Below, piece by piece: positions 12,298 through 23,151 of a stretch of DNA of 64,000 nt; position 1 is the first letter of the stretch, and each line of letters begins with the position of its first letter. The notes beneath the pieces are model-generated. The model was not told where the DNA came from and searched no databases. It was given only the letters and a program-made list of their open reading frames with translations. The stretch lies in NCBI GenBank assembly GCA_026224775.1, contig JAMFRP010000033.1, positions 55,789 to 119,788 on the forward strand, given 5' to 3'. Source of the stretch: Bacteroidota bacterium (lineage in GTDB: Bacteria > Bacteroidota > Bacteroidia > Sphingobacteriales > Sphingobacteriaceae). The position numbers were made by a program, and so were the translations under genes.

Positions 12298-13683
12298 TTA
12301 AGCTGCGATTATACTTTTTATATCGGCGATAATTTTTTCCGCCAGTTTACCGGCATTTTCCAGCGATTCCGCCTCAGCATATATCCTGATCACCGGCTCA
12401 GTATTCGATTTACGCAGGTGCACCCATTGTTTATCAAATTCAATTTTTAAACCATCGATAGTACTGTAAGGCTGATGCTGATATTTCAGTTCCATCTTTT
12501 TTAACAGACCATCAATATCCATTTCCTCCGTAAGGGTAATTTTGTTTTTCGAGATGTAGTATGCAGGGTAGCTTGCTCTTAATGCCGATACCGTTTTACC
12601 GGTTTTAGCCAGATGCGTTAAAAATAACGCTATACCAACCAAAGCATCCCGACCGTAATGCAACTCTGGATAAATGATACCGCCGTTACCTTCGCCACCT
12701 ATTACCGCGTCGGTTTCCTTCATTTTAGTTACCACGTTCACCTCACCAACTGCGGATGCATTGTAAACGCCGCCATTCAGTTCGGTAACATCACGCAATG
12801 CGCGAGTTGATGACAGGTTTGATACCGTATTTCCCGGATTATGCTGCAAAATATAATCGGCAACGGTTACCAGCGTATATTCTTCGCCAAACATAGCGCC
12901 ATTCTCATCAACAAAACAAAGGCGATCAACATCGGGGTCAACAGCAATACCCAAATTAGCTTTGGTTTCAATTACTTTACTTGACAACACTACCAGGTTT
13001 TCAGGAAGCGGTTCAGGGTCATGCGGGAACTGACCATTTGGTGTGCAGAATAATTCTTCTATTTGTGTTACGCCTAATTGCTTCAGCAAAGCAGGTAAAA
13101 ATATACCGCCTGATGAGTTCACGCAATCAATAACCACCTTAAAATTAGCTTTTGTAATAACCTCAACGTCAACCAATGGCAAAGCCAATATTTTGTTGAT
13201 GTGTTTTTGCAGATAACTGTCATCAGTAGTTACTTTACCAATGTTATCTACCTCAGCAAAATCAAGATCACTATCTTCAGCTATAGCTAAAACAGCTTGT
13301 CCTTCAACATCATTTATAAATTCGCCATGTGAGTTTAATAATTTCAGCGCGTTCCACTGTTTAGGATTATGACTTGCCGTGATGATAATACCACCGCCTG
13401 CTTTTTCATCAGGCACGGCAACTTCAACCGTTGGCGTTGTCGACAAGCCAATGTCAACCACATCAATACCAATGCCCATCAACGTACCCACAACAAGGTT
13501 TTTAACCATCTCGCCCGAGATGCGTGCATCGCGACCGATAACCACTTTATTAATACCGGTGGTTTGCAATACCCAGCGGCCATAAGCAGCCGTGTATTTA
13601 ACAATATCATTCGGAGTAAGGCCATTGCCGGGCTTACCACCTATAGTTCCCCTAATGCCGGAGATTGATTTAATTAAGGTCAT
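12298..13683 (-). CDS. glmM: Phosphoglucosamine mutase / phosphohexomutase (alpha-D-phosphohexomutase family)
   Basis: Moves phosphate between C6 and C1 of (N-acetyl)glucosamine or related hexoses. The 461-residue protein has the four-domain mutase layout: SGIRGTIGG at the N terminus, catalytic Ser104 in TASHNP, the metal loop DPDVDRLCF near residue 250, the sugar-binding loop GEGNGG near 335, and a C-terminal phosphate loop RKSNTEPVIRIY. It is the last gene of the nahK-nagB-glmM run (12 bp after nagB), so besides cell-wall precursor supply it may convert the 1-phosphate made by the NahK-like kinase into the 6-phosphate. Bacteroidota homologues are annotated as GlmM or as phosphomannomutase. 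Confidence 0.85.
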   Translation of the reverse strand: MTLIKSISGIRGTIGGKPGNGLTPNDIVKYTAAYGRWVLQTTGINKVVIGRDARISGEMVKNLVVGTLMGIGIDVVDIGLSTTPTVEVAVPDEKAGGGIIITASHNPKQWNALKLLNSHGEFINDVEGQAVLAIAEDSDLDFAEVDNIGKVTTDDSYLQKHINKILALPLVDVEVITKANFKVVIDCVNSSGGIFLPALLKQLGVTQIEELFCTPNGQFPHDPEPLPENLVVLSSKVIETKANLGIAVDPDVDRLCFVDENGAMFGEEYTLVTVADYILQHNPGNTVSNLSSTRALRDVTELNGGVYNASAVGEVNVVTKMKETDAVIGGEGNGGIIYPELHYGRDALVGIALFLTHLAKTGKTVSALRASYPAYYISKNKITLTEEMDIDGLLKKMELKYQHQPYSTIDGLKIEFDKQWVHLRKSNTEPVIRIYAEAESLENAGKLAEKIIADIKSIIAA

Positions 13684-13695
13684 GATAGTTTTTTA

Positions 13696-15615
13696 TTAGA
13701 ACTTCCACTTCACAAATGCTTCCATGGCTTCATATTCTGCCAAACCAAGCTGGTTATATGTTCTTGCTGTTTCGCTGGTACGGTCTTCGGCACGTACCCA
13801 AAACTCGCGGGCATCATCACCCGGGAAAACCGGCCTGTCCTTTTGCGACTGGTGTTTAAAGATAGCCAAACGTTTACGCTCCACCTCTTCAGGTGATAAT
13901 GGTACGCACATTTCTATCTCATGGGTTTCAAACTCAAACCAGGCGCCACGGTATAGCCATAACCAGCAATCTTTAACCCACTCCTCGGTTTTCCCCAGAC
14001 GTTTTAAAGCTTCCAGAATAATATTGAAGCAAGTTTCATGGGTACCGTGTGGGTCGGCAAAATCGCCTGCTGCATAAACCTGTTGTGGTTTTACTTGTTG
14101 TAACAAAGCCATGGTTTGCTGAATGTCGTCCTCATAAGAAACATTTTTGCTCACCTTCCTCCTGTCGTAAAAAGGTAGGTTTTGGAAATGGATATGATCA
14201 TCATCCAATCCAACAAAACGTGCACCTGCAATGGCTTCACCTTTACGAATTAAACCTTTAATGGTTTGCAATTCTTCAGGGTCGGTTTGGTTGGGTTGTT
14301 TTGTGCTGATGAATGAACGGGTAGCTTCGTATAATTTCTCAATATCACTACAATTCACATTTTGCGATTTGGCGAAATCAAGCGAAAATTCAATATATCT
14401 TAACGCATCATCATCCCAAACGGCAGTATTACCTGATGTTTGATAAGCTACATGCACATCATGCCCCTGGTCTGCTAAACGAATAAAAGTACCCCCCATA
14501 GATATTACATCATCATCCGGATGCGGTGAGAACACGATCACACGCTTTTTGGCAGGATTTGCACGTTCCGGGCGCTGGCTGTCATCCGCATTTGGTTTAC
14601 CACCCGGCCAGCCGGTTATGGTATGCTGCAGCTTATTAAATATGTGTATGTTGATATTATAAACCGGGCCTTTTTCCGTAGCCAGTTGGGCCATGCCGTG
14701 GTTATTATAGTCATCCTCGGTTAGCTTTAAAATCGGTTTGTTTAATGTTTTAGATAGCCAGATAACTGCTTTTTTAATCATCTGCTCGTTCCAAACACAA
14801 TCCTTCACTAACCATGGCGTATTAAAACGGGTTAGTTCTGATGCTGCATCGGTATCAACAATAAATTCAACGTGATCGGATAATTGTAAATAGGTAGCAG
14901 GTACGTCAGCAGATATTTCACCTTCAACAGCTTTTTTCAATATCGGTGCTTTTTTCGCACTCCAGGCCATCAGGATAATTTCTCGGGCTTTGAAAATGGT
15001 GCCAATACCCATAGTGATGGCTTTGGTTGGCACATTGGCTTTCCCACCAAAATCATGCGCAGCATCGCTACGAGTTAATTCATCCAGTGATATTAAACGT
15101 GTACCTGAATTTGGCGCGGAGCCCGGCTCGTTAAAACCGATGTGACCCGTACGACCGATACCCAATATTTGTATATCCAAACCACCTAATGCAGAGATCT
15201 TTTGCTCATAAGCCAGGCAAAAAGCGGCAATATCTTCCTGTTTTAATGTGCCATCGGGTATATTTACATTATTTAGATCGATGTCCACATGACCAAATAA
15301 ATGCTCTTTCATAAAAGCATTATAGCTTTGGGCCGCGGTTGGCTCCATTGGATAATATTCGTCGAGATTAAAAGTAATTACATTTTTAAAGCTCAAGCCG
15401 TCCTCTTTATGCAGGCGAACCAATTCGCTGTACACTGCAATGGGGGTTACACCTGTAGCAAGACCTAAAACGGCATTTTCACCTTTGGCCGCCTTTTTTT
15501 TAATTACTTCGGCTATACGTTTTGCAACTGTTTTTGATGCGGTAAGCTTGTCGGGATATACCGTTACCGGTAGTTTTTCAAATCTTGTTTCTTCTAAAAG
15601 ATTTAAACGTGGCAT
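13696..15615 (-). CDS. nagB: Glucosamine-6-phosphate deaminase fused to a PIG-L/LmbE-type deacetylase
   Basis: A two-domain protein of 639 residues. Residues 1 to about 275 are NagB: LGLATGVTPIAVY (50-62), NLDEYYPM (83-90), and GIGRTGHIGFNEPGS with the catalytic His/Glu (152-166). It converts GlcN-6-P to Fru-6-P plus ammonia. Residues about 358-530 form a PIG-L/LmbE zinc deacetylase domain with the zinc motif SPHPDDD (H365, D367, D368) and the second site DPHGTHETC (H523, H526), apparently intact. This long form is found in other Bacteroidota. The fused domain could deacetylate GlcNAc-6-P in place of NagA, which is not seen nearby. It sits between nahK and glmM in one operon. Confidence 0.9.
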   Translation of the reverse strand: MPRLNLLEETRFEKLPVTVYPDKLTASKTVAKRIAEVIKKKAAKGENAVLGLATGVTPIAVYSELVRLHKEDGLSFKNVITFNLDEYYPMEPTAAQSYNAFMKEHLFGHVDIDLNNVNIPDGTLKQEDIAAFCLAYEQKISALGGLDIQILGIGRTGHIGFNEPGSAPNSGTRLISLDELTRSDAAHDFGGKANVPTKAITMGIGTIFKAREIILMAWSAKKAPILKKAVEGEISADVPATYLQLSDHVEFIVDTDAASELTRFNTPWLVKDCVWNEQMIKKAVIWLSKTLNKPILKLTEDDYNNHGMAQLATEKGPVYNINIHIFNKLQHTITGWPGGKPNADDSQRPERANPAKKRVIVFSPHPDDDVISMGGTFIRLADQGHDVHVAYQTSGNTAVWDDDALRYIEFSLDFAKSQNVNCSDIEKLYEATRSFISTKQPNQTDPEELQTIKGLIRKGEAIAGARFVGLDDDHIHFQNLPFYDRRKVSKNVSYEDDIQQTMALLQQVKPQQVYAAGDFADPHGTHETCFNIILEALKRLGKTEEWVKDCWLWLYRGAWFEFETHEIEMCVPLSPEEVERKRLAIFKHQSQKDRPVFPGDDAREFWVRAEDRTSETARTYNQLGLAEYEAMEAFVKWKF

Positions 15616-15658: not shown

Positions 15659-16804
15659 CTATTTTATCGCCGGGATTTCTGCTCCGGCCTCTACATTCTT
15701 CCATTCAGTTTGCACAACGCTTTCCAGTTCTTTCCTGTTAAATTCGAGCATTTTAAACAGCTGCATTTGCGCATGGGTACGTTGCAAATTATGTTCGGCG
15801 AAATGTGTCTTATAATACACATCACCCTCCAGATAATCAGTTAAAAACCTGATGGATTGCATATATGGTAACAGTAACACACCCATTATCAGCGATTTTA
15901 ATTCCGCTTCGGTAAGGAATGATTTGGTTTGGCTCAGGTATCCTTTAGTAAACTCAGCGAACAAAGGAATATTCAATTGAATCGCATTTAAATCAGCCTC
16001 ATCCTCCACAGCGGTATTGATGATGGTACGGATGGCATCGCCAAAATCAAAAGCTACATAGCCTGGCATTACGGTATCCAAATCAATAACGCATTGGATA
16101 TTATTATCCTTATCCAACAGGATATTATTGAACTTAGTATCGTTATGGGTGATGCGTATTGGCAATATACCCGCCCTTCCCATTTTAGGGATCTCATTCA
16201 TGGCGACAGCCCAGCTATTCAGAAAATCAACTTCTGCTTTTACTTTTTCTAATCTGCCTGCAACGTTCTTTTTGATTGCATTCTTAAAATCATGTAGACG
16301 CTTTTCAATATTCAGGAAATCAGGAATCGTATCGATCAAAACCTTCGGATCGAGATCCGATAATAAATACTGGAACCTGCCAAAGGCTACCCCACCCTGA
16401 TGAGCTTGTTGTTCAGTCGTAACCAGATCATAGCTTTTAGTATCTTCTAAAAAACAGGTCATACGCCAGTAGTTATCCTGCTCGTCTTTATAGTAATATT
16501 TGCCTGCTTTTGTTGGGATAAGCGTTAAAACCTCTTTATCGGGGTTACCGCCTGCTTTACCTATTTTTTGTTTCAGATGGTTTACAACAAACAGCATGTT
16601 GTTCATTAAACCATCGATATTTTTAAACACAAAACTGTTTATTTTTTGCAACAGGTAGCCCGGATGGACCCCTGTTTTGCTTTTAACCAGGTATGTATCA
16701 TTAATATGTCCCGATCCGAAATTTGAAATTTCGAAATCCTCACCTTCCGTATTAAAATGTGCAATGATGTCGGTAAAATTATAAGGCATTGCGTTGCTAT
16801 TCAT
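15659..16804 (-). CDS. nahK: NahK-like N-acetylhexosamine 1-kinase (aminoglycoside phosphotransferase fold)
   Basis: A 381-residue cytosolic kinase of the APH/choline-kinase fold. The catalytic loop is ITHNDTKFNNILLD (about residues 212-225) and the metal motif is CVIDLDTVMPGYVAFDFGD (about 232-250), with the conserved HND.K..N and D.D patterns. The N-terminal FGSGHINDTYLV is the nucleotide loop. Bacteroidota homologues are often misnamed mucin desulfatase; the pattern fits the bifidobacterial N-acetylhexosamine 1-kinase family that phosphorylates GlcNAc/GalNAc at C1. It heads an operon with nagB and glmM and has a LacI-type operator over its promoter. Exact sugar preference is inferred. Confidence 0.75.
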   Translation of the reverse strand: MNSNAMPYNFTDIIAHFNTEGEDFEISNFGSGHINDTYLVKSKTGVHPGYLLQKINSFVFKNIDGLMNNMLFVVNHLKQKIGKAGGNPDKEVLTLIPTKAGKYYYKDEQDNYWRMTCFLEDTKSYDLVTTEQQAHQGGVAFGRFQYLLSDLDPKVLIDTIPDFLNIEKRLHDFKNAIKKNVAGRLEKVKAEVDFLNSWAVAMNEIPKMGRAGILPIRITHNDTKFNNILLDKDNNIQCVIDLDTVMPGYVAFDFGDAIRTIINTAVEDEADLNAIQLNIPLFAEFTKGYLSQTKSFLTEAELKSLIMGVLLLPYMQSIRFLTDYLEGDVYYKTHFAEHNLQRTHAQMQLFKMLEFNRKELESVVQTEWKNVEAGAEIPAIK

Positions 16805-16945: not shown

Positions 16946-18952
16946 CTACCTAGCGTCCATGACTTTTACTTCAAATGGAGCTAATTTAACTACAAAGGTT
17001 TCGCTATTATAAAATGGTGTTTTTGCATTTGTTTTTGCATCATAAAAACAGTAATTAGCGCTATAACCGGTAGGTATATCTAACATCTGCCTTACATGCA
17101 CTGTAAATGTTTTTGTGTGCGATGTTGGGTTACGCAAACTCAACACGCCTTTTTTATCAGCCCAACCCGCATAGCCATAAACTTCACCTTTCAACGGGTT
17201 ACCGCCGACCCAGTGGGTATCGGCTAATTGTTTAGCGTGTGCTTTTGACCAGTTTGATGCATCGCGAATGCAATCCCAATCGACTGAATTTAATTTATGG
17301 GGATCGACATACAATTCCTGCAAGCTTGTTCCGCTTCCAAAGAATGCCCATATCTCATCACTGATGTCCTTGTTATCCATCTCCAGTGTGCCAGGCAAGC
17401 CACGATCGGCAATACAAATACCGTGGTACATTACCGAGTTTAGAGGATATAGCGGCGCACGTTTTACAATATTTTCATATGCCTGCCCATCTTTGTAGGT
17501 GATCCATTGCTGGCGTTTCGGGCCTTCGCCGCCTAAACCGGTATCATCACCTGCACGCCAGATGGCATCACCATATTTTAACCAGTAAACTGATGGCCAT
17601 GTACCAACGGTTAAACTCAGGTATAAATCAGGTTTATCGGTGCGTAACTCGGTTATCAGTTTTAAAAAGGCTTCTATATCTTTTTGATAAGTGATACTAG
17701 CACCACTCGCGCCGTTACCTGCACCTACCCCATCAAACTTAAATATGCTGATGTTATAATCCTTGATAAACGATGTAGTCACGCCCCTGAAACGTTTATA
17801 ATAATTTGACCCTGTTAATGAGAACCCGTTTTCGTTAGTTTCAAAAGGCGGTGTTTGTTTTGCACCGTAAGCGAGGCGTTGTTTTTTGTGCTCATCGTAA
17901 CCTCCCCAAGGCGAGATCCACACCCCAAGGGTTGAATTGGCCCCCTTAGCTGCTTTAGCTATTTTTGTAAACCCATTAGGAAAACCTGAATTAAATTGCC
18001 ACAAGGTTTTAGTATCATCCCAACCATCATCAAACAAAAAAGCTTTCAGTTTTACATGGCGTTTGTCTATCAAGCTGTCCTTAAATACTTTTATGCGATC
18101 AAGACAAACAGAATCGTTTAATTTACTGTCATCCCAGGAGATATCGAACCATGAGTTATAATGCAAAAACTGGCGATAAGGCACCGCTCTTTCGCGCTCA
18201 GTATAATACAGAAAACCACGGCGCAGTTGACCCACAGGCGTAGTACCCCAAACCGATGAAATAGTTAGCGGCGCTGAGTTATAAACCGGGTTTAAACGTG
18301 GCAGGTAAATAGACACACTGCTTTTGTTAGTCAATGTCTGGCTCATAGGATGTTCCAGCGAGAAGAACATATTGTTGTGTACCAATGGTGAGCCATCAAC
18401 TGTACCTTCTTTTTTTATGCCGATTGATGAGGGTAATTGTACCAGCGTAATTTTAGAGATTTTAACCGAATCAGCGGCGCTAAAAGTAAATACCTGACGG
18501 ACATAGTTACCCTCGTTTAACAAGCTCGCTTCCCAATGAACTTTTAGTCCAAGTTTAGCATCTTCCAGATCAGCACTTAGTTTTTTGCCGGATAGTTTGT
18601 CGGCGTATTTGAGTGCGTTTTCATCTCCGGTTATATCTGATGTAGTCGCTAAACCTACCACGGTAAATTCATTTGATGTGATGACTTTATCGCCAACCAA
18701 CAATGAAAATAAAGCGCTTTTCCCAATGGCTAAATGCTCATTAGTTTGCTTGTCGCTAAAACCGGCAATAGTCAATTTATCCCCATTAGTGGCAAAGCTC
18801 ATAGCAAGTGCCGTATTTTCAAAAGTTATGGTTTTGCCTACTTTTTTGATTGACGCAAGGCCGGGTTTATTGCCCGGGTAACCAACCTGGGCAATAGAAC
18901 AATTTAACCCGGCAATCAACCAAATCAAAAACAAAAAAAGTTTCTTATACAT
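16946..18952 (-). CDS. GH36-like alpha-galactosidase / alpha-N-acetylgalactosaminidase
   Basis: A secreted 668-residue clan GH-D enzyme. The signal peptide ends near residue 21 (NCSIAQ). After an N-terminal beta-domain comes a TIM barrel with AFLFDDGWDD (304-313), GVWISPWGGYDEH (343-355), the nucleophile Asp407 in SIFKFDGVGAG, and the acid/base Asp469/470 in IWRAGDDTG, followed by a C-terminal beta-domain. The type is related to clostridial AagA-like GH36 enzymes, whose Bacteroidota relatives are sometimes misannotated as enterotoxin. In a locus with galE and NahK-like genes, an alpha-linked Gal or GalNAc terminal residue is the likely target. It is the last gene of the PUL. Confidence 0.75.
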   Translation of the reverse strand: MYKKLFLFLIWLIAGLNCSIAQVGYPGNKPGLASIKKVGKTITFENTALAMSFATNGDKLTIAGFSDKQTNEHLAIGKSALFSLLVGDKVITSNEFTVVGLATTSDITGDENALKYADKLSGKKLSADLEDAKLGLKVHWEASLLNEGNYVRQVFTFSAADSVKISKITLVQLPSSIGIKKEGTVDGSPLVHNNMFFSLEHPMSQTLTNKSSVSIYLPRLNPVYNSAPLTISSVWGTTPVGQLRRGFLYYTERERAVPYRQFLHYNSWFDISWDDSKLNDSVCLDRIKVFKDSLIDKRHVKLKAFLFDDGWDDTKTLWQFNSGFPNGFTKIAKAAKGANSTLGVWISPWGGYDEHKKQRLAYGAKQTPPFETNENGFSLTGSNYYKRFRGVTTSFIKDYNISIFKFDGVGAGNGASGASITYQKDIEAFLKLITELRTDKPDLYLSLTVGTWPSVYWLKYGDAIWRAGDDTGLGGEGPKRQQWITYKDGQAYENIVKRAPLYPLNSVMYHGICIADRGLPGTLEMDNKDISDEIWAFFGSGTSLQELYVDPHKLNSVDWDCIRDASNWSKAHAKQLADTHWVGGNPLKGEVYGYAGWADKKGVLSLRNPTSHTKTFTVHVRQMLDIPTGYSANYCFYDAKTNAKTPFYNSETFVVKLAPFEVKVMDAR

Positions 18953-18962
18953 GTTATTAGCT

Positions 18963-19988
18963 TTAAAAAGGATTGTTATTAATATATTTTTCCCATGCCC
19001 ATGCCGATGACAACATACTGGTTAAATCGTTTTCGGCTTTCCAGTTTAATTCTTTTTCAGCTAGGCTCACATCGCCCCAAATTTTCACAATATCCCCATC
19101 GCGCGGCGGACCAATACGATAGTTCAATTGCTTACCGGTAACTTTTTCAAAGGTGTGGATCAACTCCAGTACAGAATAGCCATTCCCTGTACCCACATTA
19201 AACACTTCATAAGCAGCTGCCATTTGTTTGGCTTCCATGCGTTTTATGGCAGCAACATGTGCCTTAGCCAAATCAACCACATGGATAAAATCACGGATGC
19301 AGCTGCCATCAGGCGTATCAAACTTATCACCAAAAACGGTTAACTGTTCGCGCTTACCAATAGCTGTTTGGGTGATGAATGGCACCAGGTTTTGTGGTAC
19401 ACCGTTTGGCAACTCGCCTATTAAGGCTGATTGATGCGCGCCTACCGGATTAAAATATCTTAAGGCAATCACTTTTAGATCATCGGTTGCATTGGCTGTT
19501 TCTTTTAGGATCTCCTCGCCTATTTGCTTGGTGTTGCCATAAGGCGATTCTGCTTTTTTTATTTCCGCTTGTTCCGTAACAGGTAACGTATCTGGTTCCC
19601 CATAAACAGTGCATGATGAGGAGAATACAAAATTCACTGCGCTGCCCGCCAATGAGTTTAGCAAATTAACCAGCGTTGATATATTGTTATCATAATACAA
19701 TAGCGGATTTTTAACCGATTCGCTTACCGATTTTGAGGCGGCGAAATGTATTACGCCGCTTATATCAGTATGCTTTTTTAAAAATTCAATTATCGACGAT
19801 TTATCACGTAGATCGAGCTTTACAAAAGCAGGTTTTTTACCAGTGATGATCTCAATCTGTGTGAGTATCTTAATATCAGAGTTGGATAAATTATCTATTA
19901 TAACAACCTCGTAGCCGTTATTTTGCAATTCAACCACCGTATGTGCACCTATGTAGCCCGTGCCTCCTGTAACCAATATCTTTCCCAT
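18963..19988 (-). CDS. galE: UDP-glucose 4-epimerase
   Basis: Interconverts UDP-Glc/UDP-Gal and possibly the N-acetyl forms, in the cytosol. It is a 341-residue extended SDR: NAD loop GGTGYIG (residues 7-13), DNLSNSD near 32, the Ser-Ser-Cys-Thr triad region FSSSCTVYGE near 125, the catalytic YGNTK, and RYFNPVGAH near 180. It lies inside the PUL between the GH36-like and DUF4874 genes with gaps of 10 and 5 bp, so it belongs to this catabolic operon and argues for galactose or GalNAc in the substrate. Confidence 0.93.
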   Translation of the reverse strand: MGKILVTGGTGYIGAHTVVELQNNGYEVVIIDNLSNSDIKILTQIEIITGKKPAFVKLDLRDKSSIIEFLKKHTDISGVIHFAASKSVSESVKNPLLYYDNNISTLVNLLNSLAGSAVNFVFSSSCTVYGEPDTLPVTEQAEIKKAESPYGNTKQIGEEILKETANATDDLKVIALRYFNPVGAHQSALIGELPNGVPQNLVPFITQTAIGKREQLTVFGDKFDTPDGSCIRDFIHVVDLAKAHVAAIKRMEAKQMAAAYEVFNVGTGNGYSVLELIHTFEKVTGKQLNYRIGPPRDGDIVKIWGDVSLAEKELNWKAENDLTSMLSSAWAWEKYINNNPF

Positions 19989-21540: not shown

Positions 21541-23151
21541 TTATAGTTTCTTAAAAACAGGCACATCGCCCAGTCCTACCTCAACAATCTTTACTGATGG
21601 CCCCTTGAATATTTTTCCATCTTCACTTTGCCATTTACCTTTCGGGAACATTATTTTTCGATGATCGGCCTTTTCTAAAACAGGCGCCACCATAATCATT
21701 TTACCCAGCATAAACTGATCTTTAACCGTATCTAACCCTTGTCCCGGGAACTCATATTCCATATTCCGCACTACAGGCTCGCCGGTTACGGCTGACTGTT
21801 TAACTGTTTGCATGATATAAGCGGTGTATTTCGAACGAAGCGCAACAGCTTTTTTTACCGCCGCCAAATGACTTGCATCCAGTATGCGCCATGGCGCGAC
21901 CGAAAACTGCATCATTGGCATCAAAGCACTACATTGAGCTGATCTTACCACCAAATCCTGATCGAAATGGTTTAGGCCTATAAATGAGCCATACTCTCCC
22001 CCGCCAATCATATCAGGGCAGGTAAACTGGTAACCTAATAAGCCAGAGGCTGTAATATTGGGTATCAGTTTTTGCAGATCATTCCAGTTATGCTTTTTAT
22101 CACGTAATCTCTCGGCAAGAGGTTGGCCACCCCGCTTCCACATGGCGCGGTATTCATTTAACGGGTATGATAAACCAATGCTTCCCCATAATTCTGATTG
22201 TTGATTAGGTGTAGCAGGTTTAAAAGAGATCACGTTCGATGGATAAAACTCCATGTCCCCGGCATCAAACTTAAATCCATCAAGGCCGTAAGTATCCACC
22301 ATGTACTGTAACTGTGCTTTATACCATTGTACCGCATCTGGATTAGTAAAATCAAGTTCCGCACTGTAGCCATTCCACCAGCTGATTATTGCTGGTTTAG
22401 ATGCTTTATCCCATGTTAAGGCTTTGTCGCCCTGGTCATCCAGCAGAAGCAGTTTTTTTGCTTCGAGATCTCTTGATATTTCACTATCTGATGAAATGAA
22501 CGGACAAACCCATACCATTACTTTAAAGCCCAATTGGTGTAGCTCAGCAATCATTTGCTTTGCATCAGTAAACCGATCTTTTCTAAAGCTGAACTTTCCA
22601 TAAAAATCCATCCAGTTATCATCAATCATCAATACTCCCGGAGGAAATCCGTTATCTATAATTTGATGAGCATATTTTAAAATATCTGTTTGGTTTTGAT
22701 TATAAACCAACTCAATCCATGTGTTGTATTGCGGGCGGGCGAACAACAGACTATCAGGCATCTGACCGCTTGCCGCGAATTTGCTTTTACTTGCAGCTTT
22801 AAATGCATCGGATAAAGTGTTGCCTGCTTTTACAACTGAAACACTATCTAATGCTTTATCAATAATTAACTGGTTGCCTTGGATTGTAAATTCAAAAGGC
22901 TGATCACTCCATATATAGCGGCCTTTGGTTGATAATAACAATGGTGCAGACTGATTGTCTTTATTATCACCATACAAATTAAAACTATAACCATTTTGAA
23001 AAGGCATTACATGGCCATCATCAACAGTGCCGCCAAACCACTTCTCTCCGGCTTCAATAGTTATATTTCTTTTAGCAGATTGATTTGTTTGGGCAGTAGA
23101 TACCCCGCATACCCATATTAAAAGGCAGGTTACAATTGTTAGCTTATTCAT
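21541..23151 (-). CDS. GH31 family alpha-glycosidase, short MYORG-like subgroup
   Basis: A secreted 536-residue GH31 enzyme with signal peptide (cleavage after VSTA, residue 20). Barrel motifs are YNTWIELVYNQ (142-152), GVLMIDDNWMDFYG (172-185), GFKVMVWVCPFIS (208-220) and the nucleophile Asp296 in LDGFKFDAGD; the CPDMIGGGEYGS loop follows. The motif pattern and small N-terminal domain fit the MYORG-like GH31 group, which includes alpha-galactosidases, better than classical alpha-glucosidases. Substrate is inferred from context (alpha-Gal or alpha-HexNAc). It lies 8 bp downstream of the NagX-like gene. Confidence 0.78.
   Translation of the reverse strand: MNKLTIVTCLLIWVCGVSTAQTNQSAKRNITIEAGEKWFGGTVDDGHVMPFQNGYSFNLYGDNKDNQSAPLLLSTKGRYIWSDQPFEFTIQGNQLIIDKALDSVSVVKAGNTLSDAFKAASKSKFAASGQMPDSLLFARPQYNTWIELVYNQNQTDILKYAHQIIDNGFPPGVLMIDDNWMDFYGKFSFRKDRFTDAKQMIAELHQLGFKVMVWVCPFISSDSEISRDLEAKKLLLLDDQGDKALTWDKASKPAIISWWNGYSAELDFTNPDAVQWYKAQLQYMVDTYGLDGFKFDAGDMEFYPSNVISFKPATPNQQSELWGSIGLSYPLNEYRAMWKRGGQPLAERLRDKKHNWNDLQKLIPNITASGLLGYQFTCPDMIGGGEYGSFIGLNHFDQDLVVRSAQCSALMPMMQFSVAPWRILDASHLAAVKKAVALRSKYTAYIMQTVKQSAVTGEPVVRNMEYEFPGQGLDTVKDQFMLGKMIMVAPVLEKADHRKIMFPKGKWQSEDGKIFKGPSVKIVEVGLGDVPVFKKL

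Follow-up and report, generated by a model that had tools for sequence, protein, structure and literature searches.

The classical N-acetylglucosamine-6-phosphate (GlcNAc-6-P) deacetylase is NagA (TIGR00221), a protein of the amidohydrolase fold. A different protein, in which glucosamine-6-phosphate (GlcN-6-P) deaminase, NagB, is fused to a PIG-L/LmbE deacetylase domain, is already catalogued as NCBIfam NF002557 (PRK02122). Its family name, "glucosamine-6-phosphate deaminase-like protein", gives the PIG-L half no role. Here we describe a NagB-PIG-L fusion of the same full-length architecture, encoded in a 64-kb stretch (the window) of contig JAMFRP010000033.1 from a member of the Sphingobacteriaceae. 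We propose with moderate confidence, from sequence comparison and gene context, that the fusion is a bifunctional GlcNAc-6-P deacetylase/GlcN-6-P deaminase, in which the PIG-L half would remove the acetyl group and pass GlcN-6-P to the NagB half. NagA would then catalyze the same deacetylation with an unrelated fold.

Among characterized PIG-L proteins, the archaeal diacetylchitobiose deacetylases (Dac; 4xm1, 8bgo) are zinc enzymes that act on GlcNAc substrates, as the PIG-L half of the fusion would. However, they are unfused, share 17-18% identity with that half and have another known substrate. The bacillithiol and mycothiol deacetylases BshB and MshB have the HPDD motif and the PIG-L fold in common with the fusion, but the window protein is fused to NagB and matches the BshB1 model weakly (residues 359-398, 31.7 bits against a cut-off of 182.5).

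Members of the fused family have been treated as plain NagB. The chitin utilization locus of Flavobacterium johnsoniae contains a gene annotated nagB (Fjoh_4557), and a separate NagA (Fjoh_3974) is predicted for this species (PMC5127042). In F. johnsoniae CI04 the fusion (L086) follows two SusC/D pairs and precedes a 700-aa gene, which is the place of the published nagB; judged by gene order, this appears to be the published locus. The deacetylase half goes unmentioned in that paper (PMC5127042), and literature searches for the fusion with PIG-L or LmbE found nothing.

An intact fusion with two conserved active sites

The fusion is a single uninterrupted open reading frame of 639 aa on the minus strand (13696..15615); the plus-strand reading of the same interval has stops throughout. 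It matches NF002557 over residues 7-639 (profile positions 21-652 of 653) with 1029.2 bits against a cut-off of 384, and is a real, intact member of the known fused family. The NagB domain (PF01182) spans residues 24-244 (14884..15546), and the protein scores 239.4 bits against the NagB equivalog model TIGR00502, whose cut-off is 236.9. By alignment, its catalytic segment is GIGRTGHIGFNEPG (residues 152-165; 15121..15162), which includes T156, H158 and E163. The PIG-L domain (PF02585, 63.9 bits against a cut-off of 28.2) spans residues 360-536 (14008..14538) by its Pfam limits, and the fold runs past them to about residue 630. It carries both the H-P-D-D motif, as HPDDD (residues 365-369; 14509..14523), and the H-x-x-H motif, as HGTH (residues 523-526; 14038..14049), a second zinc or catalytic motif. 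All of these features lie on the minus strand. The NagB active-site segments named in an earlier note on this DNA are present, and the zinc motifs, including H523 and H526, sit where that note had put them.

Both active sites are conserved across the family. In an alignment of 83 fusions, which are 54-78% identical to the window copy, NagB residues D85, H158, E163, R173 and K222 are invariant; we take these to be D72, H143, E148, R172 and K208 of E. coli NagB. Residue 156, the position of D141, the third triad residue of the E. coli enzyme, is T in 62 fusions, N in 19 and S in 2, and B. subtilis NagB carries N at the equivalent position. In the PIG-L half, H365, D367, D368 and H526 are invariant, HPDDD does not vary at all, and residue 523 is H in 81 of the 83 fusions and N in the other 2. 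Such conservation at both active sites means that selection probably maintains the two halves alike. An AlphaFold2 model built from 46 sequences has a mean predicted local distance difference test score of 87. The closest solved structure to its NagB half is B. subtilis NagB (2bkv; 42% identity, template modeling (TM) score 0.96 over the target), and the closest folds to its PIG-L half are the archaeal Dac enzymes 4xm1 and 8bgo (TM score 0.63-0.65 over the target). The architecture, the intact residues and the genome content given below are direct observations, to which we add inferred substrates and catalysis. The fusion would be a cytoplasmic enzyme with two activities: a zinc-bound water in the PIG-L half would take the acetyl group off GlcNAc-6-P, and the NagB half would convert GlcN-6-P to fructose-6-P and ammonia, so that the work of NagA and NagB would be done in one protein.

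NagA, MurQ and the fusion across Bacteroidota

Could the fusion take the place of NagA? The strongest evidence for such a substitution in relatives is gene context. MurQ converts N-acetylmuramic acid 6-phosphate to GlcNAc-6-P and D-lactate. We examined a named set of 80 fusion loci from 64 genomes, some of them drafts or metagenome-assembled genomes. At 6 of these loci an NCBIfam-confirmed MurQ is encoded within 10 kb of the fusion. About 0.25 such cases would be expected by chance, on the assumption that murQ is one gene in 4000; the murQ loci come from about four lineages and are not all independent. NagA is missing from five of the six genomes (L083, L085, L088, L126 and L130). The locus of Robiginitalea sp. 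SC105 (L088), which contains murQ, deoR, the fusion, an ampG-like gene, a glycoside hydrolase family 3 (GH3) nagZ-like gene and anmK, reads as a peptidoglycan-recycling set in which the fusion occupies the place expected of nagA and nagB. The loci from a Saprospiraceae genome (L083) and a Maribacter (L085) resemble it. In F. pectinovorum (L087), which has no NagA, the fusion lies among SusCD genes, a 701-aa gene with a GH20 reference match and a ChiA-type gene with two GH18 domains. We also observed that a D-2-hydroxyacid dehydrogenase linked to flavin adenine dinucleotide adjoins the fusion at two loci with murQ within about 10 kb (L130:12078-14993 and L093:11982-14897); it may oxidize the D-lactate released by MurQ.

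We then compared the distribution of the two proteins in a phylum sample of 198 genomes, counting a fusion when it exceeded its cut-off and a NagA as full-length at 150 bits or more; for NagA, the nine top-ranked candidates of a first look were scored in each genome. The fusion is present in 77 genomes. Full-length NagA was found in 33, in 27 of them over its cut-off; both proteins occur together in 21 genomes, whereas 12 encode NagA but no fusion. NagA is absent from 56 of the 77 fusion genomes, and among the matches listed for a second NagA model, PF22643, there was no extra NagA-sized protein in the NagA-less fusion genomes, a test of limited independence since this model also matches other amidohydrolases. 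In the named set, 36 of the 64 genomes have NagA (three by weak matches) and 28 do not. It is a reasonable hypothesis, on these genome contents and contexts, that the fusion replaces NagA in many relatives, and in many NagA-less Bacteroidota it would be the likely sole route from GlcNAc-6-P to fructose-6-P.

Several observations weigh against this proposal. As a control, 16 genomes encode a stand-alone NagB but not the fusion; NagA is present in 9 of these and absent from 7. NagA absence differs between fusion and NagB-only genomes with a Fisher p of 0.04, uncorrected for kinship. With NagA missing from 7 of the 16 controls as well, its absence alone proves little. Across the whole sample of 198 genomes the presence of the fusion is positively associated with that of NagA, and in the family that includes the source genome (f1) all six sampled genomes have both. 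In F. segetis (L097) a gap of 76 bp separates the fusion from the sole nagA, which directly precedes it, and in a second genome (G068, contig C15) nagA lies about 80 bp upstream. A nagA directly upstream would make the two redundant if both act on GlcNAc-6-P. Such neighbors, and the f1 genomes with both proteins, imply either overlapping function or another substrate for the PIG-L half. Moreover, the substrates of known PIG-L enzymes are mostly C1-substituted GlcNAc or oligomers rather than a 6-phosphate. Finally, expression of the F. johnsoniae NagB did not succeed, and deleting its gene left chitin use unaffected; the authors point to three further nagB-like genes (PMC5127042).

The next most likely explanation, possible though clearly less probable than a bifunctional enzyme, is that the NagB half deaminates GlcN-6-P made by NagA while the PIG-L half deacetylates another compound whose product enters the same pool, for example free GlcNAc, chitobiose, N-acetylgalactosamine (GalNAc)-6-P or a muropeptide sugar. 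It accommodates the presence of NagA in the source genome and in more than half of the named fusion genomes, the two cases in which nagA adjoins the fusion, and the likeness of the PIG-L half to diacetylchitobiose deacetylases. However, it leaves the MurQ-linked fusions of NagA-less genomes unexplained, since GlcNAc-6-P would have no deacetylase there, and a deacetylase for free GlcNAc would require a glucosamine kinase.

What of the genome from which the window comes? The earlier note had found no nagA and suggested that the fusion could replace it. There is indeed none within the 64-kb window, but the genome encodes a full-length nagA on another contig (C13:1924-3009, L047:1912-3027; it scores 322 bits with TIGR00221, whose cut-off is 225.65). 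The suggestion thus fails for the source genome and is plausible for its relatives, where 56 of 77 fusion genomes lack NagA and MurQ-linked loci occur. The note had also named a functional nagA elsewhere with coordinated regulation as a finding that would refute it; half of this holds, in that a nagA exists on another contig, where it is flanked by genes that read by eye as tsf and pyrH. Such a setting among housekeeping genes is unusual. The genome has three fusions; the other two (C46:92926-94848 and C60:107597-109531) are full-length and both share 76% identity with the window copy. A NagC-like ROK-family regulator, SusC and SusD precede the C46 copy, and the C60 copy is close to a gene for a ROK kinase and to one resembling a hybrid two-component regulator. 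The best reading is that the window fusion, one of three, would act alongside an ordinary NagA with which it is redundant. A fourth PF01182 protein (C27:82534) was rejected as a stand-alone NagB; it follows zwf- and gnd-like genes and from this context is probably a 6-phosphogluconolactonase.

Four genomes (G188, G035, G019 and G132), in which there is no full-length NagA match, contain a second kind of NagB-PIG-L fusion, which is divergent and 698-795 aa long (L143:2643-4682, L144, L145 and L146). In this group V or I replaces the Glu of the NagB catalytic triad (GHIGFNVQGS), while the PIG-L half has HHDD as its first motif and PDTHYK as its second.

The nahK-glmM cluster and a possible route through C1-phosphates

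The gene order around the window fusion is directly observed. As the earlier note placed it, the fusion lies between nahK and glmM; the three genes share a strand, and the fusion is 43 bp downstream of the former and 12 bp upstream of the latter. The nahK-like gene (15659..16804, minus strand) encodes a 381-aa N-acetylhexosamine 1-kinase whose closest solved structure is Bifidobacterium longum NahK (4wh1/4ocj; E about 1e-69, 238 bits), matched over nearly the full length (residues 13-364). The glmM-like gene (12298..13683, minus strand) encodes a 461-aa phosphoglucosamine mutase (TIGR03990, 522 bits against a cut-off of 439). Upstream of nahK on the same strand are a gene for a 668-aa protein (16946..18952), galE (18963..19988; TIGR01179, 395.6 bits), a gene for a DUF4832 protein and a GH31 alpha-galactosidase gene (21541..23151; 8j50, E 5e-199). 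galE is probably in the same transcription unit as the fusion cluster. The 668-aa protein is glycosidase-like by appearance; it has no Pfam, NCBIfam or PDB sequence match, looks secreted, and bears the glycosidase-like motifs DDGWDD and FKFDG. A genome of the same genus (G099) keeps this gene order, the GH31 gene excepted, and the 668-aa protein is kept there too.

In this cluster NahK would make GlcNAc-1-P, or GalNAc-1-P together with GalE and a nucleotidyltransferase. GlmM, we infer, would act on the acetylated sugar and convert GlcNAc-1-P to GlcNAc-6-P, after which the fusion would carry out the final two steps. A NahK-GlmM-fusion route is possible with deacetylation either before or after the GlmM step, and the nahK-linked loci suggest a cluster that salvages GlcNAc or GalNAc by way of C1-phosphates. 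The linkage is uncommon: nahK lies close to the fusion in 5 of the 35 phylum genomes that have a nahK homologue and at 5 of the 80 named loci. Other lineages with a nahK-linked fusion are G107, G174, G091, Pedobacter glucosidilyticus, Aureibaculum, Flavobacterium sp. 245 and Ferruginibacter. The distant genome G174 has a row of glmM, fusion, a major facilitator superfamily (MFS) transporter, epimerase, nahK and nucleotidyltransferase, in which the counterparts of the three window genes all fall within 8 kb. No glmM was found near the fusion at any of the 80 named loci, and we discarded the idea that linkage to glmM characterizes the family as a whole.

If deacetylation came before the GlmM step, the PIG-L half would act on GlcNAc-1-P: NahK would supply GlcNAc-1-P, the PIG-L half would yield GlcN-1-P, GlmM running in reverse would give GlcN-6-P, and NagB would form fructose-6-P. 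We regard this as unlikely. It has the merit that GlmM would stay on its established substrate, and PIG-L enzymes prefer alpha-1-substituted GlcNAc. The nahK-fusion-glmM order of the window and G099, and the proximity of all three genes in G174, are also consistent with it. Furthermore, the cluster glmM is a second copy; the other glmM-type gene of the genome (C60:73628) is in a housekeeping setting. Yet the rarity of nahK linkage and the lack of glmM linkage in the named set argue against it, the MurQ-linked fusions would have no source of GlcNAc-1-P, and nahK-linked copies bear no distinguishing residue change. A pocket specialized for GlcNAc-1-P in the window copy was considered and rejected; its DR-type loop at residues 484-486, which borders a low-confidence loop in the AlphaFold2 model, is also found in unlinked Sphingobacteriaceae copies. 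More doubtful still is an unrecognized Bacteroidota amino-sugar route through GlcNAc-1-P and GlcN-1-P that would bypass both GlcNAc-6-P and NagA. Least credible of all is that the PIG-L half is inert or merely structural and the protein a plain NagB, because the metal-site residues are kept in 81-83 of 83 fusions that are as little as 54% identical to the window copy. In its favor is the usual annotation: PMC5127042 names the protein NagB, and NCBIfam calls it deaminase-like.

Other genes recur near nahK. A nucleotidyltransferase of about 300 aa stands beside it in several Bacteroidota (L136:7029-7931, L137:13431-14339 and L142:8442-9341) and possibly makes the uridine diphosphate derivative of GlcNAc or GalNAc from the NahK product. 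The source genome has a homologue with 50% identity (C19:28153) and a second nahK-like gene on C53. At another locus (L140:14030-14764; G122, contig C87), a stand-alone, distant NagB-like protein (28% identity) is encoded about 5 kb from nahK and near an MFS transporter; it may serve as an alternative deaminase or isomerase in clusters of this type.

Why would it matter if GlcNAc-6-P is the substrate of the PIG-L half? A protein that is widespread but annotated as NagB alone would then supply the missing step in many Bacteroidota that lack NagA yet degrade chitin, glycans or peptidoglycan. Pathway reconstructions that score such genomes as unable to use GlcNAc would be wrong. Two consecutive steps would be joined in one protein, and a 6-phosphate would be a new type of substrate for PIG-L enzymes.
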